Assembly: GCF_020740535.1 (NCBI RefSeq)
Contig: NZ_CP082362.1
Location: 7,251,501 to 7,315,500, forward strand
DNA: 64,000 nucleotides
DNA from: Streptomyces profundus
GTDB taxonomy: Bacteria; Actinomycetota; Actinomycetes; Streptomycetales; Streptomycetaceae
Reading direction: 5' to 3'
Part shown: one piece after another, positions 32,138 through 42,830 of the stretch
How positions within the stretch are numbered: the stretch's first letter is position 1
Layout of the letters: each line of letters opens with the position of its first letter
The notes under the pieces: model-generated
Told to the model about the DNA's origin: nothing
The model's database searches: none
The model's input: the letters and a program-made list of their open reading frames with translations, nothing else
Translations under genes and position numbers: made by a program

Positions 32138-32605
32138 ATGACGACCCAGCACGCCTCCGACGCCGAACTCGCCGCACAGCCGGCCGCCTACTGGACCGGG
32201 GTGGCCCATGAGGCGGTCATCTCCTTCACCCGAGCCCGACAAGCCGAACTGGGCTTCACCCAGCCCCAGTTCTGGCTGCTGCGCAATCTGTCGAAGAACG
32301 ACATCTCACCCGACGGCCGAGGTATGACCGTCCCCGAACTCCAGCGGGCCATGAGCTCCTACCTCAGACCCGGGGACGATCTGAAGGCGGAGGCGGGAAC
32401 CCTGCTGGAGCGCGGTTGGCTCACCCGCGACGCCGAGGGACGACTGTGGATCACCGAGTCGGGCGAGGAGGCCCGCCTCGACCTCAAGCGGCACGCCCCC
32501 GCCATCCGAGCCCGCATCCACCGGGGCATCGACGACGCCGACTACGCGACCACGGTCAGAGTGCTCCAACAGCTCACCCGCAACACCGACGGCACCCAGA
32601 CCTAG
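32138..32605 (+). CDS. MarR-family winged-helix protein
   Basis: 155 residues. Central winged helix (FTQPQFWLLRNLSKND, TVPELQRAMSSYL, LLERGWLTRDAEGRLWITESGEEA) between helices that form the dimer interface. The start ATG 32138 has GAGGAGCCC ahead. A SoxR-type promoter directly upstream suggests it is induced by redox-active compounds and then controls other genes. No operon partner: a strong terminator follows at 32711. Confidence 0.85.
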   Translation: MTTQHASDAELAAQPAAYWTGVAHEAVISFTRARQAELGFTQPQFWLLRNLSKNDISPDGRGMTVPELQRAMSSYLRPGDDLKAEAGTLLERGWLTRDAEGRLWITESGEEARLDLKRHAPAIRARIHRGIDDADYATTVRVLQQLTRNTDGTQT

Positions 32606-32710
32606 CCCGAGCAGGCCTGCGCATAACAAGCGAATCCTGCCGTTGGCAGGAAGCGGAGCCTGTCGGGGCCGCGGTGCGTGATCCACCCATCGAGCCATTG
32701 CGGCGCCACA

Positions 32711-32737
32711 GGACCCGGGCCTCAGCGGCCCGGGTCC
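32711..32737. terminator. Strong hairpin between MarR gene and the defence-like operon
   Basis: GGACCCGGGCC and GGCCCGGGTCC form a perfect 11-base stem with loop TCAGC, between converging genes. It is also the left boundary of the island that follows. Confidence 0.75.
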
Positions 32738-32750
32738 CAGCAGGGGAGCG

Positions 32751-33881
32751 TCAGGTGGTGGGGCGCTGCGCCAGAGCGCGGGCCCTGCTCGCCCAGTCCC
32801 CCATGGATGTGATGGCGGAGGTCATCACCTTCACCGCTGCGGAGATGTCCTTCGCCGGTTTGTGGAGGTGTCGACTCAGACGCACCAGGCCACCCGCCGA
32901 CGTAGCGAACGAGCCGAGCTGACCCAGGCTCTCCTGAGCGGTTTCGTCCAGGGCCATGAGCTGTCCCAGGAACTCCTCTGTTCCCTCGTCGCGCTCGTCG
33001 GTCGGAGTTACCTCGATGAGCCCCAGCGCAGCCCGCACCCCGCTGTCCAGGGTCACCATTCGTTCCGCGAACGTCCCTGCGACAAGGTTCATTTCCTGGG
33101 CTGGTGAGCTGATCGACTTTGCGTACCGAGCGACGGCGGCGAGCCGTGCGCTCGCGGGCGCGTTCGCCTGGCTGAGGTCGAGCATCTCGGTGTTGGTCTG
33201 TTCGGTCAGCGCCCCGATCGTTTCGATCATCTTGACGATCGTCCCCACATCCGCGGTCATCTCCTCCAGCCCGTCCTCGATCGCGGCGAAGTCGTCGAGC
33301 AGACCGGGTGAGTCCTCGTCCTCCGTCTTCCCGCCCTCCGCCGAGGACGACAGCCCCTCAACGTTCTGGAGCAGTCCGCGCAGCACCCGCGCCGGGGTGA
33401 GGAGTTCGAAGCCGTCCCGAAGTCCGACTTCCAGGGCGCTCTCGATTTCCTTGCGCGCGCCGGCCAGGTGGCTGCGCGCCCGTTGATACCGGATCGTCCT
33501 GATCGACGCGATGTCGAACGGCAGCTTCCCTGCCTCCCCGATGTGGACGGTCGGCTTGCCGGTGATGTGACGCAGCCCCAGCTCGTACATCACGTTGGGG
33601 TTGCCGCCGCTGACGTCTGCGATGACCAGGTCCGAGTCGATGACGTGCCGACAGATCTGGTCGTTGATGTCGCCGGCGTGGGCGATGCCGTCGGCGCGCA
33701 CCGCGATGATCCCGTGCTTCTCGCAGGCAGGAACGATCACCTGCTCGAAAATTTCGAGGTGGTGCTCGTACGCCTCTCGCTCGGGGCTGCCGTTCGAGGC
33801 ATACGGGTCGCCGATGGGGCCGATGACAAAGCACCTGCGGGGCTGGTCAGGCGTCTTCGCAGGAGCCAGTGACGCGATCAT
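32751..33881 (-). CDS. Nucleoside-deoxyribosyltransferase-like (TIR-like fold) protein with coiled-coil C-terminus
   Basis: 376 residues. Residues 16-135 form a Rossmann-like base-removing-enzyme domain: CFVIGPIGDPYAS, DINDQICRHVIDSDLVIADVSGGNPNVMYELGLRH and PFDIASIRTIRYQ. Glu100 in VMYELG is at the position of the catalytic Glu in this superfamily, which includes nucleoside 2-deoxyribosyltransferases and TIR-like NAD-cleaving effectors. Residues 140-376 are helical and low in aromatic residues, resembling coiled-coil signalling proteins (EEMTADVGTIVKMIETIGALTEQTN). It is the last gene of a five-gene coupled operon (ATGA overlap at 33878-33881) and is the probable effector. Function is inferred; the family is reasonably clear. 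Confidence 0.7.
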   Translation of the reverse strand: MIASLAPAKTPDQPRRCFVIGPIGDPYASNGSPEREAYEHHLEIFEQVIVPACEKHGIIAVRADGIAHAGDINDQICRHVIDSDLVIADVSGGNPNVMYELGLRHITGKPTVHIGEAGKLPFDIASIRTIRYQRARSHLAGARKEIESALEVGLRDGFELLTPARVLRGLLQNVEGLSSSAEGGKTEDEDSPGLLDDFAAIEDGLEEMTADVGTIVKMIETIGALTEQTNTEMLDLSQANAPASARLAAVARYAKSISSPAQEMNLVAGTFAERMVTLDSGVRAALGLIEVTPTDERDEGTEEFLGQLMALDETAQESLGQLGSFATSAGGLVRLSRHLHKPAKDISAAVKVMTSAITSMGDWASRARALAQRPTT

Positions 33882-34186
33882 GCGAGGTCCTCCGTTCTAT
33901 GTGGATGGGCTTCGTCGAGCTGGGCGGCGTGCGTGGCAGCGGCTTCCAGATCGGCGGCGTACACCGGCCGCTCCTCAATGCCGAGGGAGCGCAACAGGTG
34001 TGCGGTCGGAATGCGGTAGCGCCAGCCGAGGCGCAGCACGGGGCAGGGGAAGGCGTCGAGGCGGATCAGCTTGTACGCCGTACCGGGGCAGATATCGAAG
34101 GCACGGGCTGCCGTGCGCAGGTCGACGCTCAGGGGTAGGTCGAAGGCCTCTGCGAAGCCCAGGGGCGGGCCGGATCGTGCGCTCAT
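33878..34186 (-). CDS. Small helix-turn-helix DNA-binding protein
   Basis: 102 residues from ATG 34186, which overlaps the previous stop (ATGA). The MerR/excisionase-like HTH is at about residues 18-70 (LPLSVDLRTAARAFDICPGTAYKLIRLDAFPCPVLRLGWRYRIPTAHLLRSLG), a pattern common in Streptomyces. It may autoregulate the operon, for example at the 20-base palindrome upstream, or be an excisionase-type relic. Its own stop overlaps the start of the deoxyribosyltransferase-like gene. Confidence 0.8.
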   Translation of the reverse strand: MSARSGPPLGFAEAFDLPLSVDLRTAARAFDICPGTAYKLIRLDAFPCPVLRLGWRYRIPTAHLLRSLGIEERPVYAADLEAAATHAAQLDEAHPHRTEDLA

Positions 34187-34935
34187 CGGCGGGCCTCCGC
34201 GGGGCGGAGGGTCAGCGTGCCGATGAGGTCGGCCTCCTCGTGGCGGCGGGCCCGGAACACCAGGTCGGACAAGCCGGCGCTGTGGGCGAGCGCCCTGAGC
34301 CGCTCTCCCTCCCGCCGGGTGCGCGATTCGGCGAAGCGGATTGTCGTGGCCAAACCCTCGGGGCGTGGCCTGGGCGTAAGGTGCAGCTCCCACCTGCCGG
34401 CCGGCCGTAGCTGTTCCTCCGGTGGAGGTGTGGCGTTGCGGGCGTCGGCGAAGGCTGCGATGTCCACGAAGGGAACCTCGCGCCTGATCCGATCCACGTA
34501 GGCCCACATCCGGTTCACCCCTTCCTTGATCATGTGGTTGCCCGTGTCCGAGCTGGCCGGATCTGCCGAGTCGAGGGCGGTGAGCACGGCCAGGACGGCC
34601 TCCGCCTCAAGGTCGGCTCGCTCGACCCTCAGCCGGCGGAGGATCTTGTGAAGGCTCCGGTACAGCCCGGGTAGCGCCAACCAGACGATGAACAACCGCT
34701 TCGTGCCGTTCCTGCCGGTCTCTCGCTGAGCCTCGGTGACGGCCTGTCGCCAGATCACGGGCCACAGATCCGCATCGCGCTCCGCTCCGTACAGTGCCTT
34801 CCTGCATTCCTCCGGAGAGAGCCGGATCGTGCGATCACCCACATTCACGGTGAGGGTTGGCCGCACAGCACCGGGTGCTCCGAGAAGCTCACTTTCGATC
34901 AGGGCGAATAAGCTCCTGGGATCAGTCGATGTCAT
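34183..34935 (-). CDS. Unknown protein, 250 residues, in the coupled operon
   Basis: I do not recognise a named family. The N-terminal half is helical with a basic, sigma-factor-like stretch (FIVWLALPGLYRSLHKILRRLRVERADLEAEAVLAVLTAL) and a second helical part (NHMIKEGVNRMWAYVDRIRREVPFVDIAAFADA). The C-terminal half is predicted mixed beta with many Arg residues. No signal peptide or membrane span. The start ATG 34935 lies inside the end of the preceding small gene (14-base overlap) and the stop overlaps the HTH gene. Its constant coupling to the HTH gene suggests they work together, perhaps in regulation. Confidence 0.65.
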   Translation of the reverse strand: MTSTDPRSLFALIESELLGAPGAVRPTLTVNVGDRTIRLSPEECRKALYGAERDADLWPVIWRQAVTEAQRETGRNGTKRLFIVWLALPGLYRSLHKILRRLRVERADLEAEAVLAVLTALDSADPASSDTGNHMIKEGVNRMWAYVDRIRREVPFVDIAAFADARNATPPPEEQLRPAGRWELHLTPRPRPEGLATTIRFAESRTRREGERLRALAHSAGLSDLVFRARRHEEADLIGTLTLRPAEARR

Positions 34936-35215
34936 TACTTCTCCTTTGCTGCCTCGTCAGGCCGACTGACGACAGCGCCGCGACAGCTCGCCCGCAGGCG
35001 TGGGCAAGGGCGGTCAACGCCGACCGCACATCTGCGTGACGTGTCCCTGAGACCGGACTCGCCGTCTCGCGACGCGGCCGGGAGGATCCGTCCACCGAGG
35101 CGGACGTGTGAATATGAACGTCGCCGTACACGTCGTGGCCGACGTTCACCCCGTAGTCCGCCCGCTGGATGCCGTCCCCTTCGAGTCGGAGCGGGGCCTC
35201 GTTCGGTGCCGTCAC
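34922..35215 (-). CDS. Small protein carrying a GVNVGHD motif
   Basis: 97 residues. ATG 35215 overlaps the stop of the cyclase-like gene (ATGA). Residues 22-35 read GVNVGHDVYGDVHI, matching residues 235-248 of the upstream cyclase-like protein (GVNVGHDLSGSLTI). The rest is low-complexity, followed by a helical Ala/Arg-rich end (RSALTALAHACGRAVAALSSVGLTRQQ). Short Gly/Asn/Val-rich motifs shared between a receptor and a neighbour are a known pattern for bacterial amyloid-type or homotypic signalling; applying that here is inference. Too short for most family models. Confidence 0.6.
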   Translation of the reverse strand: MTAPNEAPLRLEGDGIQRADYGVNVGHDVYGDVHIHTSASVDGSSRPRRETASPVSGTRHADVRSALTALAHACGRAVAALSSVGLTRQQRRSNDID

Positions 35216-36003
35216 AGGGCGCGCCCGTGGCCGGCCGCCGGAGGGGCCACGGGCAGGCCGATGGTGAGACTCCCACTGAGGTCGTGTCCGACATTGACGC
35301 CATGGGGGGCGTACTGAGAGGGCGCCGTTCGGGTAGGGGCGGGACCATCGGGCGACGGCATCGGCCCACTCGTGTCGGCTAAGGACCGGTGTACTTCGTC
35401 CGGGGCGTGGCCCGGCACGTGGATCCAGCCGTAACCGCCGAAGTCCTTCACCCGGACATGGACTTGGGCGTACTGGGTCTGGTCGAGGTCGGGGTGCCCC
35501 AACCGTACGACGTCCTGGTACAGCCGGTCGGACACGATGACTGCGAGATCAGCCGGGGGAAGGGCAGCGAGTACGGCCTTCAGTTGGGGCGCGTTCACAT
35601 AGCGTGCCACGGCGACTGGCGCGGGTCCGGCATGACCGAGAGCCGCGTCGGCGACGATGCCGGTGTCGACGGCGAGCCGCAGTCTGACGCGAGGGGTGGC
35701 CGGGCGGGCGTTGAGGGCGCCGAGGCGGGCCACCAGGTGGCGCACGAAAGGGCCCAACACGGCGACTTCGCGTGTGGCCTCGGGGAGTACGGCGAACTCC
35801 TGGTCGCCCTGAGGCTGGCGAGCCCAGGCGTCTCGGTTCAGTCCGGTCAGTGCCGCCGCCTCGTCCAATAGCCGGACCAGGTCGGATTGGACGGTTGACT
35901 GGCTCCGGGTGTCGAGGCGGCTGTACTCCTCCATGTCCGCCGCCAGGCACAGCCTGCGGTGCGGAGTGATCTCCCGCGTCCAGCGGGAGAGGGATTCGTT
36001 CAC
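35212..36003 (-). CDS. Nucleotidyl-cyclase-like protein with C-terminal GVNVGHD motif
   Basis: 263 residues. Residues 15-195 resemble the class III nucleotidyl cyclase fold common in Streptomyces hypothetical proteins: LCLAADMEEYSRLDTRSQ (Asp23), RQPQGDQEFAVLP (Asp67), RVRLRLAVDTGIVADA and VARYVNAPQLKAVLAALP. The two Asp residues at metal positions are kept, but purine-specifying and transition-state residues of true cyclases are not evident, so it may bind rather than make a nucleotide. A Pro-rich tail leads to GVNVGHDLSGSLTI, shared with the next gene product. First gene of the five-gene operon, about 80 bases after a 20-base palindrome. Confidence 0.7.
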   Translation of the reverse strand: MNESLSRWTREITPHRRLCLAADMEEYSRLDTRSQSTVQSDLVRLLDEAAALTGLNRDAWARQPQGDQEFAVLPEATREVAVLGPFVRHLVARLGALNARPATPRVRLRLAVDTGIVADAALGHAGPAPVAVARYVNAPQLKAVLAALPPADLAVIVSDRLYQDVVRLGHPDLDQTQYAQVHVRVKDFGGYGWIHVPGHAPDEVHRSLADTSGPMPSPDGPAPTRTAPSQYAPHGVNVGHDLSGSLTIGLPVAPPAAGHGRAL

Positions 36004-36080
36004 GGCAACGCGTTTCCTTCCACGTGTCGTTGGGTGCGGTGCACGCCAACTGTGTGGGGAAGGGAGACGAGCCGTCGAAG

Positions 36081-36100
36081 AATTCGCATTAATGCGAATT
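36081..36100. promoter_or_regulatory. Perfect 20-bp palindrome ahead of the five-gene operon
   Basis: AATTCGCATTAATGCGAATT is fully symmetric and AT-rich in GC-rich surroundings. It covers the end of the Crp-type gene and lies about 80 bases upstream of the cyclase-like start, so it is a good operator candidate for that operon. It does not match the TGTGA-N6-TCACA Crp pattern. Confidence 0.6.
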
Positions 36101-36814
36101 GTGATCGTGTCTTTGGGTAACCGGCATGCCCAGCTTGGCGACTTTCCGCAATCGGGCGATATCCCGCACGTAGGTCTGCTTGAGGCCAGTGGTGATGAGG
36201 TTCTGCCTGCCCAACTGGATGAGCGCGTTGTGTGCGGTGCCCGCTCTGCACCCGATGAGGGCGGCGAACTCGGGCTGAGACAGATTCACGTCGATGCGCA
36301 CCGCGTTGCGTTCCTGTCGCCCATACGACGCCGCCAGTTCGACGAGCACGCGTGCCAGCCGCACCAGGACCGGGTAACAGCCGAACTCCAGACGCCAGCG
36401 GTCGGACCGTCGCAACCCGCCGGAGAGCACTCGGGTGAGGGCCAGTAACACCTCGGAGTTGGCCAGGAGGAAAGTCTGCAGTTCGTGTGAGGGGATAACT
36501 GTGGCAACGACCTCCCCACATGCGGTTACCGTGGCCGACCTGGGGCGACGGTCCAGGGCCGCCAGCTCACCCACGACATCCCCGGCGATCTTGATGTCCA
36601 CGAGCTGTGGCCGGTCACGTCCCAGCTGGACGGTCACCTTCACCAGTCCCTGATGAAGCAACACCAGATCCTGCTCGTGGTCGCCCTCACTGATCAGTAC
36701 GTCGTCCCTGGTGAAGCGGTGCCTACTGCCGAGCTGTGTCAAAGCTGTGCGTGCCCCGGGCGACAGGGTGTCGAGAAACGGCCGGCGATCAACCATGTTC
36801 GATGCATGAATCAT
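36089..36814 (-). CDS. Crp/Fnr-family regulator
   Basis: 241 residues from ATG 36814 (ATG 36796 is equally possible; neither has a clear ribosome site, and the long upstream extension looks non-coding). Cyclic-nucleotide-binding-type beta roll (ISEGDHEQDLVLLHQGLVKVTV, DVVGELAALDRRPRSATVTA) at about residues 30-130, then a C-terminal winged helix (LSQPEFAALIGCRAGTAHNALIQLGRQNLI). The GELAALDRRPRSATV segment resembles the phosphate-binding cassette, so a nucleotide ligand is possible. It lies directly upstream of, and in line with, a cyclase-like gene, which hints at a linked signal. Confidence 0.85.
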   Translation of the reverse strand: MIHASNMVDRRPFLDTLSPGARTALTQLGSRHRFTRDDVLISEGDHEQDLVLLHQGLVKVTVQLGRDRPQLVDIKIAGDVVGELAALDRRPRSATVTACGEVVATVIPSHELQTFLLANSEVLLALTRVLSGGLRRSDRWRLEFGCYPVLVRLARVLVELAASYGRQERNAVRIDVNLSQPEFAALIGCRAGTAHNALIQLGRQNLITTGLKQTYVRDIARLRKVAKLGMPVTQRHDHNSH

Positions 36815-37015
36815 GTGCACAGCAGAGCAGTTCCCCGGCTCGGCAGTTCGCGTTTCCGCTCGTTGCTCCCGGCGCGCCGAACGCACTCCGGGGCGCACGG
36901 CGGCGCACGGTCGGAGCGCTCGACCTTCCATCGGTGCCGTCCGAGCCGTTCGAAGAACTCGATACCGAAGAGCGACCATGCCGCAGCCCACAGCCGCACC
37001 ACATGAGTCATCCCC

Positions 37016-37162
37016 CTAGCCCGAGCAGGCCCTGACGGTCACGTAGATGATCAGAGCGAGGAGGAGATAGCTGAAACAGCCCGGCTCGTCGCCATCGACC
37101 GCCCTGCGGATCCGCTCGCGCTCATCCCTTCGCCCCCGTTCGTACGCGTCCCAGTCATTCAC
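37016..37162 (-). CDS. Small single-span membrane protein
   Basis: 48 residues from GTG 37162 with a GGTTGGGGG stretch upstream. A charged N-terminus (NDWDAYERGRRDERERIRRAVDGDEP) precedes one membrane span (CFSYLLLALIIYVTVRACSG) at the C-terminus. No family recognised. It could be a tail-anchored partner of nearby defence genes. The frame can be extended upstream, but the GTG start gives the natural length. Confidence 0.45.
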   Translation of the reverse strand: MNDWDAYERGRRDERERIRRAVDGDEPGCFSYLLLALIIYVTVRACSG

Positions 37163-37269
37163 GGCAGCCCCCAACCGGCCACGATGCCAGGCCCATGTTC
37201 CCGGCCACTCGCATCGTGGCACCGCGCCGGCGGCAGCGAATTAGCCGTGCGTGCGGCGTTGGTTGTCGC

Positions 37270-38331
37270 TCAGCGCAACCGCCGAGCCTCCGGCGCATCG
37301 CTCGGCGCCGCCTGCCGGAACTCCCCGGGCGGTATGCCGTAGGCCGCGCGGAAGGCCCGGCTGAAGTCCGCCGGATGACGGAATCCCCACGCCAGCGCGA
37401 TCTCCCCGACGGTCTTGTGCCGCAGCCGTGGATCTCCGAGGTCGGCCCGGGAGCGTTCCAGTCGGCGACGGCGGATCGTCGCGCTGACGGTGTCCGGCCG
37501 TTCCCGAAACAGTTCGTGCAGCGTCCGCAGGGAGATGTGGTGGTGTGCGGCGATATCGATCGGCCGCAGGTCGGCGTCGTGCAGGTCGCGCTCGATGAAG
37601 GCGTCGATCCTGGCCAGCAGCGCCTGCCTGCGGCTCTCCGGCGGGACGGCACGGGCGATGTCCAGCCGGCCGGCGAGGAGCGTCACCGCCAGGTCGACCG
37701 CGACGGAACCGAGCCCGGCCAGCTCGGCCGGGCCGCACTCCGGCGCGTGCCTCAGGAACCCGGTCAGGTGCTGGGCCAGCAGCGCGCCCGATCCGGTCCG
37801 CGCGGGCAGGCGCGCGGCCAGCAGCCGGTCCACCTGGGCGAAGGGCAGCGGGAGCAGCGCCCGGGGCAGGCGGACCATCTCCACCCGGGCCGGGCGGCCA
37901 CTGCCTCGGAACTCGGCCCGCAACGGCCGGGAGGTGGAGTAGAGGCCCAGGTCGCCCACGCCGAGCCAGGAGTTGCCGCGGTTCTGCTCCAGCCCGATCC
38001 GGCCGCCACGGACCGCGAAGAGGTAGTAGTCCTCCGGGTCATGCCGCCGGATGTGCGTGCGCGTCCTGACCCCCGTCGCCGACGAGAGCCACCACGAGGA
38101 GACCGTCGTGTCCGGGGCGCCGACGCTGTCGACTCTCCCGCGAAAGCGCTCGGGGCGCTCGCTGGCCATCGACAGCGCCATGACCTCCGCGCGCATGAGC
38201 TGCTCCCACCAGTCGAACCGGTCCCCGGCGGGCAGGCCGTCGGTCGACAGGGACACCCACCCGCCCGGTACGGCCGCCTGTCGCGGCGCCGCGGGTCTCA
38301 CCCGATCAGCCACCGGCGCATGGTCTCGCAT
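37270..38331 (-). CDS. AraC-family transcriptional regulator
   Basis: 353 residues. N-terminal AraC-binding-like ligand domain (DRFDWWEQLMRAEVMALSM, VRTRTHIRRHDPEDYYLFAVRGG) and C-terminal double HTH (IDAFIERDLHDADLRPIDIAAHHHISLRTLHELFRE, KTVGEIALAWGFRHPADFSRAFRAAYGIPPGEFR). Such Streptomyces regulators often govern secondary metabolism or catabolism. It is 56 bases downstream of the STAND NTPase gene on the same strand, but no functional link is evident. Confidence 0.9.
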   Translation of the reverse strand: MRDHAPVADRVRPAAPRQAAVPGGWVSLSTDGLPAGDRFDWWEQLMRAEVMALSMASERPERFRGRVDSVGAPDTTVSSWWLSSATGVRTRTHIRRHDPEDYYLFAVRGGRIGLEQNRGNSWLGVGDLGLYSTSRPLRAEFRGSGRPARVEMVRLPRALLPLPFAQVDRLLAARLPARTGSGALLAQHLTGFLRHAPECGPAELAGLGSVAVDLAVTLLAGRLDIARAVPPESRRQALLARIDAFIERDLHDADLRPIDIAAHHHISLRTLHELFRERPDTVSATIRRRRLERSRADLGDPRLRHKTVGEIALAWGFRHPADFSRAFRAAYGIPPGEFRQAAPSDAPEARRLR

Positions 38332-38387
38332 CCGGGCCCCCGGGACACAGTCCTGCGCAGGCCAAGTCCGCGGGCCGCGCTGGCGTC

Positions 38388-41300
38388 TCAGCCTCGATCG
38401 GCGTTGTTGATCGCCTCGGCGACGCCATAGGACCCCAGGAGCAGCAGTTGGTCCAACAGGTCGAGGATCTCTGACCGGCGTTCGGCCGGGGTGGCCTGGG
38501 CATGTGCGCGCACCAGCAGCTCACCGACGTGATGGGCGTCGGCTGTCGTACCGCCCGCCAACCTGGGGGAAGCAGGACTGACTGCCTTGAGGAAGCGCCT
38601 CACACAGGTCAATACCAGGTCGTCGACCCGGTCAGGGGCGTGCTCAAGAGTGATCAGCAACTGGGGTAGCGCGGACTGGAAGGTACGAGAGTCAATCAGG
38701 GCAGTCAGGGTCCGGCGGAAGGGCGCCAGACGCTGGCCCCTCAACGCGAGGGCGACCGTGGCAGCGGCTTCGCGGACGTCCGTTTCCGGGGCATGGAAGA
38801 ACTGGAGCAGTGCGCGGTGGGCCAGGGCGGCGTCCCCGGTGTTCACGAGGCGTTGGGCGCACACCTCCGCGGCTCCTTGCCGGTGTGCTCGGTCATTTCC
38901 AGCAAGCACGTGCGCAAGCAGATCGGTCATCCCCCACTCCATGGCCGCCACTGCCGCGACCCGTCCACCCTGCTCGCGAACCGCTGGCACCGGGGAGTGC
39001 AACATCCGTTCCATCATCGGTCTCCCAGCCACCGGGTCCCCATAACACAGGGCGAGAAAAAGGCGAGTTACACAGGGGGAGACCAGAAGCTGGTCGGGGG
39101 CCTCCGTGAGCACCGTGAAGGCCTCGGCCACCGCAGGACGGTCGTGGCGCATCGCGGCATGCAGAACGTGGGCCACGCATGCCCGGACGGCGAGGGAAGG
39201 GTCGATGGCCAGCGAACGAAGGTGGGGTACGACCAGGGCGGCCCGCGCCCCGTTCGTGTCGTGGAGGAGCAGGTCTCCCAGGCTCCTGGCGTTGCTGCCC
39301 CGCACCGTGTTGATCCCCGCGGTGAACAGGTCGCGCTCCGTCTCTCCCTCGTCCTCAGTGAGGATGTCACTAGGGTCGTCGGAGTCGAGGGCGCGGTTCA
39401 GTAGCGTCTCCACTAGATCGAGAGGCGTGCAGGTGAGGTACTTCTGCACCGCCCACCCCAGCCAGCGGTCACATGCCAGCCTGCGTTGGTCCGCGAAATG
39501 TCGAACTGCCTCGAAAACGGTGCCCGGGTCGCTGTGTGGCTCCGCGTCACCGAGGCCGAGGAGTAAGGAGGCCCCGTAGGCCGGGTGCATCCCGGCGTCC
39601 ATCCGCAAAGCGAGCCGCGCGAACCGGTCGGGGGCGGTGGCCGTCATGCTCTGCAGCACACGCCCCAGCTCTTGAGCCCCGCCCGTGAAGGTCGCCCAGT
39701 CGGTGCGATCCTGGCTGTGCTTTCTCATGGCGCCCAGCCACTGGTCGTCGCTCATGTGCTGGGCCGCTTTCCGTGGGATGGGCGGCCCGATGAATCCGAC
39801 CGTCATCCCCTGTAGCTCGTTCGGCTCCCGCATGTCGCCGTGCAGTCTGCGGAGTTCTCCGAGCCTCCGGGCCGCCCGTTCGGAGAGTCGCCCTTCGGGC
39901 AGCGCTGTCAGCAGTGTGAACTCGTGCCAGGGAGAGTGCTGCTCGTCCGGGGGGAGCCGCAGGTGGAGCAGTGCGTTCTCCAAGCGACGGAGGGTGCCGT
40001 CGGGCAGCGCCTCACCGACCGCGCGGAGGACCTCGCGTGCCCCCCATACGGCGTTCGCCGCATAGCCGGACAGGAGGCGGTGTCTGCCCTGGAGGAGAAG
40101 TTCGGCTGTCCAGGGAGCGACGGCCGGCCCCGCCTCGATCAGCGCCTGGTAGAGGAGCCACTGCGCCCCCTCGTACACCACGTCAGTGAGCCCTTCCACG
40201 AGCTCTCGCACGCGGGCGACATCTCGGCCCGCCACGATCCGCAGAGCCTTGGCCGCGCCCTGGAACAAGGCGTCGCCGAGTGTGGTGGGCTCGTTATCGG
40301 CAGTGCGGAACGAAAAGTGCTTGTCGAAGACCGGCCAACCTGCCCGAGCAGGATTGCCTGTTGTAGCCATGACGTTCAGCAGCACGGGCAGAAGCTGCGC
40401 ACAGTACTCCTCGGGAGCGCCCAGAGCGGCGGCCGCTATCAGGCGGAGTGCCGAGCGCTCTCGGGTCAGAAGTACGGCGACCCTGCCCTGATCATCAAGT
40501 TGCAGGGAGTTCGGACGGTCCGCAAGCAGTGCATTGAGCAACTCGACGGCCCACGCGGGTTTTCCAGCTGCGAGGTCATCCACCGAGATCCAAAGGTCGT
40601 GCTCGTGACCCGAGAAGAGACCGGCCCGCGCGCCTTGGAGCAAGAGGTCGAAGAGCGCCCGGCTGTCGGTGGTGCGGGCAGACAGAACGACCCGGAACAT
40701 CCATGAGGGGTACTGGGGATCTGCCGTGTGCGGCTTCAGGAGGCCGGCCACCCGGTCTGGATAGGCGCGGGCAGCTGCAAACATCATCCGTAGCCCCCAG
40801 TCGCGTTCCCTGGCATCGGGACTGGTCAGCCAGCTCTCGATCACTGCCTCATCGTCCGCGCGTCGGAACCACGCCGCATTGCTCACTGCGTGCACAAGAA
40901 GGGCCTGGAAGGGAGGGCGGGTGTCCAGCACCCGTGCGACGGCGCCCCATTCACTGGCGGTAGGAGCCGCCAGCCCGCGTAGGACGGCCAAGGTCACGTC
41001 CTTGAGGTGGTAACGGATCTCCGGACTGGTCAGCAGTGCCTCGACCTCCTCGGCGAATCGCTCCCGGTCCAGCTCTCGCAGGTGGTCGAGGACCTGCCTC
41101 AACTGTCCGCGGCGGAAGAGTTCCTGCTCCCCACCGGTGAGAAAGGTGACCAGGCTCTCCCCTCGCCTGAGCCAGTCGCGCGCGAAGGCGTAGTCGAAGA
41201 AACTCTCGTGGAAGAAGGCCAGTTGCCGACCGTCGCGCACGCAGACGTGCTCCGAGATCAATACGTCCCGCGTCGTGGCGAGGTCGTCGGCGTCGAGCAC

Positions 41301-42830
41301 ACTGTCCGGTACGGACAGCCGTTGCCGAGCGCTCATGGTCGCCGTGACGGCCGACACCGCATCGTGAAAGCGGATGGAGGGGTTGCGACGCAGGCAGTCC
41401 CGCCGTTTGTTGTCCCAGAAGGCGTCGAAAAGCTGCGTGATGGTACGGAAGGTGAGGGCTGCCTCCTGGTCGGCGATCTGGCTCAGGAGGAGCAGATGCA
41501 GCGGTGATCGCAGCAATGCTCGCTGCGGCGGGGTCACATGGGATGCGTTCAGCCCCATATTCGTGACCGCGACGTTTACCTGGGCGTCGGAAAGTGACCG
41601 GACCTCGATGCTCGCGCAGTTGTTCGATATCGTGAGCTGGCGGATGCGGTGATCGGCTTGGGCATCGAATTCGCGGCACACGAGAACAACGCGCATGGCA
41701 GGATCTGCCTTCGCCTCGGCTACCAGATCGGCCACCGCGTCGAACGTGTCCGGGATACGTCCGGACGCGAGGCCGACCGCGTCGAGCTGGTCCACGATCA
41801 GGACACTGGGCCGACCGTCCGCCACGGCTCCGAGGGCACTGACCGGGGACACGGCCAGGTCGATACGCCGCCCCAGCTCGTTGGTCGAGGCGAAGGGAGC
41901 CAGCCGGTCGAGTCGGAATGCGAGTACCGGAGTTGCTCGTGCGTCGAGTGCGGTGAAGGCCTGGTGCAGCACCGCGCTCTTTCCACTGCCCGCTGTGCCT
42001 GTCAGGAGGATGAGCTGTTCGGAGCCTCTCGTGATCTGTTCCAGCAACCGGTCGACTTCCGCTCGGGATATAGCGGGTTGCAGCAGCCCACGTCGCACGC
42101 TTGCCGCCCACCCCCTCGTCGCCTTGCTCACGGCGTGGGTCACCACGTCCCTGTCTCCCCGACTGATCCGTCGCAGCCCGTACGGTGCCAACCGGGCGCT
42201 GATGGCCGAGGCGTCGAGAGTGGTTCCCATGTTGGTCAACAGGAGGTCGCCGAGGCCGAGGGCAGCGAGTGGGCCTGGGGCCCCGGCAAGGACCTGTTCG
42301 GCCAGGACCGCGTTGACGTTGACGAGTTCTCGTTCGTTGGGCCAGTCCACCCGGAGCCCTCTGAGCATGCGCCAGGCTGTTGTGGCTGAACCATAGATGT
42401 TGGCCGCCGCGAGGGCGTCGAAGGGGCCTTGAAGCTCATCCGACAACCACTCGGCCTTGAAGGAGGCGAAGTCGTCGGAACGGCGGGCGCGGTCGGCGAG
42501 TTCGTCGAGGGCACGGGCGGGCACCGTGGAGACGAAGTGGAAGGTGCGGCCCGCGTCGACGTGGGAACGCAGGTTCTGCCAAACCTCCTTGCTGTGGAGG
42601 GAAGCCACATTCCAGCTGTTCGCGGTGCGATTCTGTCTCTTGACCTGGTGCACCTCCGTCTCACCGTCATGGCGGTAGACGAACTCGATGCCATCGCCCA
42701 AGGGGGCGCCCGGCTCCAGGGTGATCGATGCTCCCGTGCCCAGAAGGACGTACAGGGCATGCCTGATCGTCCAGGCCCCATCGTAGCGGTTGCCGAACTT
42801 GTCCGCCTCTCCTCCTGGCCGCGGTACCAC
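38388..42830 (-). CDS. Avs-like STAND NTPase with N-terminal PD-(D/E)xK nuclease domain
   Basis: 1480 residues from GTG 42830 (AGGGGGCAGA just ahead). Three parts are visible. Residues 12-160 resemble the DUF4297/Cap4-type nuclease: NRYDGAWTIRHALYVLL, GDGIEFVYRHDG (Asp46, Glu49) and TEVHQVKRQ (Glu59, Lys64). Residues 265-560 are a STAND-type NTPase with Walker A GTAGSGKS (278-285) and Walker B VLIVDQLD (343-350), and a winged-helix region near FFHESFFDYAFARDWL. The remaining 850 residues are helical repeats of HEAT/ARM type. Nuclease-STAND-repeat single-gene architecture and size match Avs antiviral sensors, which recognise phage proteins with the repeats and then cut DNA. The assignment is by architecture; the phage target is unknown. 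Confidence 0.75.
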   Translation of the reverse strand: MVPRPGGEADKFGNRYDGAWTIRHALYVLLGTGASITLEPGAPLGDGIEFVYRHDGETEVHQVKRQNRTANSWNVASLHSKEVWQNLRSHVDAGRTFHFVSTVPARALDELADRARRSDDFASFKAEWLSDELQGPFDALAAANIYGSATTAWRMLRGLRVDWPNERELVNVNAVLAEQVLAGAPGPLAALGLGDLLLTNMGTTLDASAISARLAPYGLRRISRGDRDVVTHAVSKATRGWAASVRRGLLQPAISRAEVDRLLEQITRGSEQLILLTGTAGSGKSAVLHQAFTALDARATPVLAFRLDRLAPFASTNELGRRIDLAVSPVSALGAVADGRPSVLIVDQLDAVGLASGRIPDTFDAVADLVAEAKADPAMRVVLVCREFDAQADHRIRQLTISNNCASIEVRSLSDAQVNVAVTNMGLNASHVTPPQRALLRSPLHLLLLSQIADQEAALTFRTITQLFDAFWDNKRRDCLRRNPSIRFHDAVSAVTATMSARQRLSVPDSVLDADDLATTRDVLISEHVCVRDGRQLAFFHESFFDYAFARDWLRRGESLVTFLTGGEQELFRRGQLRQVLDHLRELDRERFAEEVEALLTSPEIRYHLKDVTLAVLRGLAAPTASEWGAVARVLDTRPPFQALLVHAVSNAAWFRRADDEAVIESWLTSPDARERDWGLRMMFAAARAYPDRVAGLLKPHTADPQYPSWMFRVVLSARTTDSRALFDLLLQGARAGLFSGHEHDLWISVDDLAAGKPAWAVELLNALLADRPNSLQLDDQGRVAVLLTRERSALRLIAAAALGAPEEYCAQLLPVLLNVMATTGNPARAGWPVFDKHFSFRTADNEPTTLGDALFQGAAKALRIVAGRDVARVRELVEGLTDVVYEGAQWLLYQALIEAGPAVAPWTAELLLQGRHRLLSGYAANAVWGAREVLRAVGEALPDGTLRRLENALLHLRLPPDEQHSPWHEFTLLTALPEGRLSERAARRLGELRRLHGDMREPNELQGMTVGFIGPPIPRKAAQHMSDDQWLGAMRKHSQDRTDWATFTGGAQELGRVLQSMTATAPDRFARLALRMDAGMHPAYGASLLLGLGDAEPHSDPGTVFEAVRHFADQRRLACDRWLGWAVQKYLTCTPLDLVETLLNRALDSDDPSDILTEDEGETERDLFTAGINTVRGSNARSLGDLLLHDTNGARAALVVPHLRSLAIDPSLAVRACVAHVLHAAMRHDRPAVAEAFTVLTEAPDQLLVSPCVTRLFLALCYGDPVAGRPMMERMLHSPVPAVREQGGRVAAVAAMEWGMTDLLAHVLAGNDRAHRQGAAEVCAQRLVNTGDAALAHRALLQFFHAPETDVREAAATVALALRGQRLAPFRRTLTALIDSRTFQSALPQLLITLEHAPDRVDDLVLTCVRRFLKAVSPASPRLAGGTTADAHHVGELLVRAHAQATPAERRSEILDLLDQLLLLGSYGVAEAINNADRG

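Follow-up and report, generated by a model that had tools for sequence, protein, structure and literature searches.

In BASS amyloid signalosomes, as set out in those sections of PMC7889193 on which we draw, an NLR is combined with a BELL, CHAT or TIR effector in filamentous actinobacteria. The relevant part of PMC11224242 presents Pycsar systems (PycC with PycTIR or PycTM), whose logic links a cyclase to a cyclic-nucleotide-binding domain and a TIR-type domain. Excerpts of PMC7159879 and PMC8195603 describe conflict systems in which a cyclic nucleoside monophosphate (cNMP) cyclase and a STAND protein are joined by matching adaptors (iSTAND2 with EADs or bDLD3), and note ECF sigma and CRP-like genes in some of them. 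Here we analyse a minus-strand operon in a window of 64,000 nucleotides (positions 7251501-7315500 of G000:C1, a Streptomyces-type chromosome of 7,653,710 bases; Table 1). Its genes 1 to 5 encode a cyclase-like protein with a motif tail (P0001), a 97-residue partner (P0002), a sigma-factor-like protein (P0003), a helix–turn–helix (HTH) protein (P0004) and a TIR-like protein (P0005); a crp-like gene (P0006) and, optionally, a STAND-type gene (P0007) precede them. Comparative analysis suggests that this mobile Streptomyces cassette may be an inducible cyclic-nucleotide alarm circuit, probably directed against phages or other mobile elements, a reading to which we give a probability of about 0.45. 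It is based on conserved gene order, co-divergence, a motif pair, conserved sites, a CRP receptor, the sigma-like/HTH pair, a domain like those of TIR proteins and nucleoside-deoxyribosyltransferases (NDT), and a locus-private palindrome.

With BASS signalosomes, as portrayed in the same sections of PMC7889193, the cassette shares overlapping genes and a short motif that is C-terminal in one protein and N-terminal in its partner. It differs in that its effector-side protein has a cyclase-like domain, in that the partner P0002 is without an NTPase domain and belongs to no NLR/STAND family, and in its additional CRP, sigma-like, HTH and TIR-like genes. The likeness to Pycsar lies in the joint use of a cyclase, a cyclic-nucleotide-binding domain and a TIR-type domain: gene 5 matches a Pycsar effector model of TIR type, and the cyclic-nucleotide-binding part of PycTIR models matches the CRP protein. 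However, the cyclic-nucleotide-binding domain is found in P0006 together with a Crp HTH and the TIR-like domain in P0005, the receptor of the cassette thus being a transcription factor, and P0001 has no PADLOC match, to PycC or otherwise, up to an E-value of 1. With the PycC match absent and the two domains on separate proteins, membership of Pycsar was rejected. Unlike the adaptor-based conflict systems, as far as the excerpts cover them, the cassette has short tail motifs rather than folded adaptors, a constant Crp–cyclase pair and a sigma/HTH/TIR-like module.

Table 1. Features of the cassette and its surroundings, in positions of the window.
Feature	Positions	Strand	Basis
P0007, 1480 residues, STAND-type NTPase bearing HEAT-like repeats; candidate for defence, optional part of the cassette at its upstream end	38388..42830	-	
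P0367, additional gene for an AraC-family regulator, separating P0007 from crp	37270..38331	-	
Conserved GTGCG-type repeats 5' of the crp start, possible regulator site	36880..36908	-	alignment of upstream regions
P0006, CRP/FNR-type regulator, cyclic-nucleotide-binding domain and Crp HTH	36089..36814	-	
Palindrome AATTCGCATTAATGCGAATT, perfect, 20 bp, overlapping the crp stop, putative operator	36081..36100	.	
Inverted repeat GTTGGCGTGC-acc-GCACCCAAC, conserved, within the gene 1 leader	36029..36050	-	
P0001, gene 1, resembling class III cyclases and ending in a motif tail	35212..36003	-	
P0001 C-terminal motif QYAPHGVNVGHDLSGSLTIG, residues 230-249, after a variable linker	35257..35316	-	
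P0002, gene 2, 97 residues, N-terminal motif and presumed C-terminal helix	34922..35215	-	
P0002 N-terminal motif QRADYGVNVGHDVYGDVHI, residues 17-35, partner of the P0001 tail	35111..35167	-	
P0003, gene 3, divergent sigma-factor-like: sigma-region-2-like domain (~residues 1-152) and degenerate C-terminal half	34183..34935	-	
P0004, gene 4, HTH_17/excisionase-type HTH protein	33878..34186	-	
P0005, gene 5, TIR/NDT-like domain and conserved C-terminal region, putative effector	32751..33881	-	
Terminator-like hairpin 3' of gene 5	32710..32738	-	

The motif pair of genes 1 and 2 was assessed at increasing distance from the window. In P0001 the variable linker is followed by a tail of the form G-x-x-V-G-x-x-[VL]-x-G, in which G235, V238, G239, G244 and G249 are invariant in all 48 aligned homologues (drawn from 120 listed among 211 found; the conservation counts for gene 1 below refer to the same alignment). 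Gene 2, which belongs to no family in Pfam, NCBIfam, PADLOC or PHROGs, opens with the same kind of motif, and the window pair, QYAPHGVNVGHDLSGSLTI and QRADYGVNVGHDVYGDVHI, aligns with a score of 56 that none of 2000 shuffles reached. Across seven divergent systems, five pairs beat their shuffles (0-2 of 2000) and those of L049 and L050 fail, while the cognate total was reached by 6 of 5040 permutations. A wider set was obtained by searching 199 Streptomyces genomes with the gene 1 relative of L059, which matched in 80, the best 30 loci being used. There, the tail scores 63.0 on average against the N-terminus of the next gene but 37.4 against non-cognate ones (0 of 20,000 permutations). Individually, 21 of the 30 pairs lie at or below 5 of 500 shuffles and nine do not; the next gene is miscalled at L132 and L133, whose small partner genes are present. 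Removal of five previously seen loci leaves 25 fresh ones with means of 61.4 versus 36.7 (again 0 of 20,000), and for the six loci that remain after dereplication at 60% identity the figure is 71 of 20,000. Other motif types also pair within their own locus, for example FSHTGEHGIQAYN with FSHSGEHGIQAYN at L135-L137. Dyrka et al. 2020 is reportedly the source cited for the BASS motifs. In our full-text literature searches, which the 2020 BASS paper lay outside, no earlier description of this gene set was recognised.

The same 30 loci tie the cyclase-like gene to a CRP-type neighbour: each has a match to the crp profile within 1.5 kb of it, compared with 0 of 30 control loci around sigma genes and 0 of 15 around ordinary Guanylate_cyc genes. 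The next-gene partners at these loci are large proteins. A P-loop-like sequence, GxxGSGRRTAALNLL, is clear by pattern in five of them, large P-loop-like partners are seen by sequence at L048 and L059, and the Pfam scan of large partners produced one weak match (nSTAND3, 0.009); we infer that they are STAND-like. Some loci are more elaborate. At L048:2932-11944 two Crp–cyclase systems stand end to end on opposite strands, one of the large-partner and one of the window type. L059:7943-17346 and L060:1857-11319 each run from Crp through the cyclase-like protein, a large protein, a 300-residue protein, a 57-residue motif protein and another large protein to relatives of genes 3, 4 and 5; the 57-residue protein bears the same NTG-x-VHGGQ motif, and the crp of L060 reads in two frames. 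At L061:5430-8161 the C-terminus of a TIR protein, QGPIHTGQGHQYY, matches the N-terminus, RGPIHSGHGSQNIY, of the next large protein, after which come relatives of genes 3 and 4; judged by its sequence, this is a further motif pair with a different effector.

The gene calls agree with an original prediction, made from the letters of the window alone, on five minus-strand genes whose four start–stop overlaps fall exactly where it had put them, on a palindrome upstream of the five, and on an Avs-like gene, which ends 2.4 kb upstream of the operon. The strong terminator that it placed downstream stands as a strong hairpin (-33.1 kcal/mol and z -2.9 for a 53-nt stretch) but lacks a T-run. Its five-gene extent, by contrast, was given up in favour of six or seven genes since crp occurs in every complete locus. 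The crp-like gene, the recurrence of the Avs-like gene with the operon and the motif common to genes 1 and 2 were absent from that account.

The genes do stay together in related loci, a point on which the prediction asked for a check. A profile search of the GTDB collection with gene 3 gave at least 17 loci, the pattern search setting a lower bound. When L039, which starts inside the operon at a contig end, and L047, with a 41-residue fragment, are set aside for want of sequence, all 15 remaining loci carry crp followed by genes 1, 2, 3, 4 and 5, with the order undisturbed. Among 14 loci whose sequence extends upstream, eight have an intact P0007 there, three retain a remnant of it, and in three it was not found. 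In the flanks of 19 compared loci, a single generic family is all that three or more loci have in common beyond the cassette, and a few pairs share flanking genes (for example two downstream genes in the window and L042, four in L045 and L049). The flanks mostly differ, so the unit looks like a mobile cassette, and its up to seven genes appear to move between Streptomyces chromosomes as one piece. The six genes diverge together (r 0.60-0.94, 0 of 5000 permutations for all 15 pairs), as does P0007 with the six over nine loci (r 0.72-0.92, 0-8 of 5000), although shared host ancestry can add to this signal. P0007 is missing at two loci in which a tRNA-Pro (ggg) gene (L044:7757-7831, L045:7772-7846) precedes crp at a distance of 180-290 bp, a possible integration hotspot; tRNA genes are found further off at L037, L038 and L040. 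The fragment at L047:9980-10120, in Streptomyces scabiei 87.22, comprises only the end of gene 3 and represents a decayed copy of the cassette.

Within the 199 Streptomyces genomes the gene 3 search returned 31 rows from 29 genomes, of which 11 with six or seven in-frame stops were dropped as spurious, leaving 20 rows from 18 genomes; 18 loci from 17 genomes were examined, G002 (E 8.9e-4) lying outside the set. Gene 4 adjoins gene 3 at all 18, a relative of gene 5 is present at 10, and the entire six-gene arrangement of Crp, cyclase and small genes at eight. Gene 3–4 pairs without genes 1, 2 and 5 stand divergent from a SARP/NB-ARC-type regulator of 917-943 residues at L051, L053, L054, L056, L057 and L058; the regulator of L053, the only one of the six scanned, has NB-ARC and TPR matches in Pfam. 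In the wider class, gene 3 matches in five of 296 genomes. P0003 was not found on PLSDB plasmids, and positions 32300-38600 contain no Rfam match.

Gene 1 has no family in Pfam (one chance match), NCBIfam, PADLOC or PHROGs, and its profile matches no PDB sequence. Its AlphaFold2 model (mean pLDDT 51.6) is confident for about residues 20-110 alone, but it follows the strand–helix order of class III cyclases: Asp23 comes after the first strand, and Asp67 sits in the hairpin of strands 2 and 3. Foldseek places the adenylyl cyclases 5o5k, 4wpa and 4wp3 at the top (E 5.4e-4 to 6.1e-4) and GGDEF domains lower, and in a comparison of the gene 1 profile with 15 ordinary cyclase loci the score was the best of its row, yet marginal. 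Gene 1 models as a class III cyclase-type fold, as the original prediction expected, with weak support from sequence profiles. The roles of the metal-binding Asp, the transition-state Asn (motif N-x-x-x-R), the Arg and the Lys are ones we take over from class III cyclases. Both metal Asp are retained, as predicted: Asp67 in 48 of 48 homologues and Asp23 in 46, the other two being gapped there because their annotated start is later. Arg134 (48 of 48) and Lys186 are also kept. In contrast, the expected Asn is replaced by Val in 47 homologues and Ile in one; at the same position the 30 relatives have Asn in 21, Val in seven and Gly in two. Cyclase activity is thus possible but uncertain, since the Asp, Arg and Lys are kept but Asn has become Val. 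Weak relatives of the family occur elsewhere in the genome of the window (G000:C1:2833411-2834028, 7611551-7612249 and 3723899-3724345).

The prediction had gene 1 sense or bind a nucleotide, whereas the CRP-type protein upstream is the likely reader. P0006 has Pfam cNMP_binding (1.5e-15) and HTH_Crp_2 (6.2e-10) domains, both over the cut-off and as expected of a CRP/FNR protein, and the GE...PRSA phosphate-binding motif is present in the aligned block members. Its start was set at 36814 by comparison with relatives, the open reading frame opening at 36991. It is the nearest same-strand gene upstream of the five, and it ends in a stop codon within the palindrome. That palindrome, CGCATTAATGCG, is found a single time in the genome, 5' of gene 1; its exact 12-mer has a single genomic copy, with one near site elsewhere. 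The pattern CGCANTAATNCG is at the same spot in 11 of 15 related loci, the other four having variants, and beyond these the only fetched loci with it are L031, L046 and L001-L003, the last three of which repeat the window. The leader of gene 1 (35985-36100) folds far better than shuffles (z -4.98), and its fold and conserved inverted repeat might represent an operator or else a functional RNA element. Related loci also retain the spaced GTGCG repeats that precede crp. Between P0007 and crp the window carries the AraC-type P0367 (Pfam AraC_binding_2, 7.3e-20; HTH_18, 8e-17), not seen there in related loci.

Gene 3, originally an 'unknown 250-residue protein', still has no family in Pfam, NCBIfam, PADLOC or PHROGs but is now read as sigma-factor-like. 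Its profile finds one chance match among PDB sequences (E 0.67). All 50 VIA rows are sigma/RNA-polymerase holoenzyme entries, the profile score is 29.8 against 8.8-15.1 for controls, and a member of its family from another actinobacterium scores 3.2e-6 against TIGR02937 (sigma70-ECF). Compared with ECF-type sigma factors, it may have, by prediction, a region-2-like fold but is highly divergent, has a degenerate region 4 and always lies beside an HTH_17 protein. The latter, gene 4, matches Pfam HTH_17 under the cut-off (0.0016), its L053 relative over it (2.5e-8).

In gene 5 the proposed deoxyribosyltransferase/TIR-like domain is supported by the PADLOC Pycsar 'TIR' effector model PDLC00733 (E 6.3e-11, residues 33-136) and by phrog_3634 (2.6e-33), Pfam Nuc_deoxyrib_tr reaching 0.12 at best. 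Glu100, in NPNVMYELG, does not vary across an alignment of 32 rows, a selection from the 120 listed among 774. Domain match and catalytic Glu together assign the protein to the TIR/NDT-like type, as a putative effector. Mean identity among the six operon products is highest for gene 4 (0.78), with gene 5 next (0.76). The gene 5 profile has no match among PDB sequences, and the full-length protein none in 50,697 phage records. The N-terminal domain by itself recurs in 41 of these records with 30-40% identity; they belong to temperate phages that infect Firmicutes, chiefly Streptococcus and Staphylococcus, for instance Streptococcus phage Javan527 and Staphylococcus phage SAP-26.

P0007 resembles Avs/STAND proteins in its P-loop STAND-type domain, its long repeats and its match to a candidate-defence PADLOC model (PDC-M54A, E 7.2e-15); Pfam AAA_16 (1.9e-7) falls just under the cut-off and nSTAND_NTPase5 (1.7e-5) also under it. 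It differs from them in being tied to a Crp–cyclase operon and in scoring far short of the NCBIfam Avs4 model (E 0.22, 8.6 bits against a cut-off of 1500). No close copy of the gene 1/2 motif was found in it (score 36 versus 56 for P0002).

A mechanism can be proposed from these parts. Once P0002 or a receptor is triggered, the motifs of P0001 and P0002 would assemble together, homotypically and possibly in amyloid-like form. Clustering might switch on or gather the cyclase by pairing its domains; known class III cyclases are active as dimers. Its product would bind P0006, which would then act at the palindrome and raise expression of the operon; P0003 with P0004 may guide RNA polymerase either onto the operon or onto target promoters; and P0005 would cleave NAD or nucleotides, so that growth stops. 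P0007 could form a second arm, of nuclease or STAND type, that accompanies the circuit at roughly half the loci. More tentatively still, and with considerable doubt, the alarm circuit may be one of a class, in which a STAND-like receptor or a 97-residue seed protein templates the tail motif of the cyclase, a neighbouring CRP passes the signal to transcription and, in Streptomyces, the sigma-like factor turns an immune-type signal into an RNA-polymerase programme of its own, alongside a TIR-type effector.

The strongest competitor to the alarm circuit, credible at rather less than even odds, is that P0001 is a catalytically dead relative of cyclases, acting as a nucleotide binder or purely as a scaffold, and that the CRP senses a nucleotide from another source. 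The change of the transition-state Asn to Val in 47 of 48 homologues speaks for it; since 21 of 30 relatives retain the Asn, this change is specific to the present branch and part of the rest. Retention of both metal Asp, the Arg and the Lys would, however, be unusual for a dead enzyme, and the cyclase–Crp pair is adjacent in 30 of 30 relatives. If, on the other hand, the motif of genes 1 and 2 were just low-complexity G/V-rich sequence or a residue of gene duplication, there would be no pairing device at all. Such an origin would suit its short and Gly-rich nature and the nine of 30 pairs that fail shuffles individually, but we consider it improbable given that differing motif types pair within their own locus, and that shuffles keep composition while permutations keep the whole set.

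Among the steps of the proposed mechanism, a role in defence has the least support. With three of seven products of transcription type, and P0003–P0004 found without gene 5 at eight of 18 loci, six of them beside a large SARP/NB-ARC-like regulator, the CRP, sigma-like and HTH proteins could instead belong to a stress or developmental regulatory operon whose gene 5 makes or breaks a signalling nucleotide. We think this unlikely: the patchy distribution (the six-gene type at eight of the 18 examined loci, these coming from 17 of 199 genomes) and mostly different flanks are unlike those of a core developmental operon, a candidate-defence STAND gene adjoins and a TIR-like domain stands at the end. 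Alternatively, P0007 might be a stand-alone Avs-like defence gene that merely shares a hotspot with a separate Crp–cyclase operon, which would fit its loss or decay at six of 14 loci, its want of a close motif copy and the tRNA-Pro genes near crp. Yet where P0007 is present it keeps the same order and strand and co-diverges (r 0.92 with P0003), and this separation into two neighbours is, in our view, possible but doubtful.

The sections of PMC7889193 considered here raise the questions of whether amyloid signalling occurs beyond NLR pathways and what purpose motif-based cascades serve in microbes. The locus offers a small system for such questions, with a tail-motif cyclase-like enzyme, a 97-residue partner, a dedicated receptor and a locus-private site, and therefore assembly, nucleotide output and transcription are each measurable. 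If the pairing rule holds, receptors in Streptomyces could be assigned to the cyclases that they feed by reading the motif tails in the sequence. A cassette carrying a sigma-like factor of its own would tie an immune-type trigger to the control of RNA polymerase.

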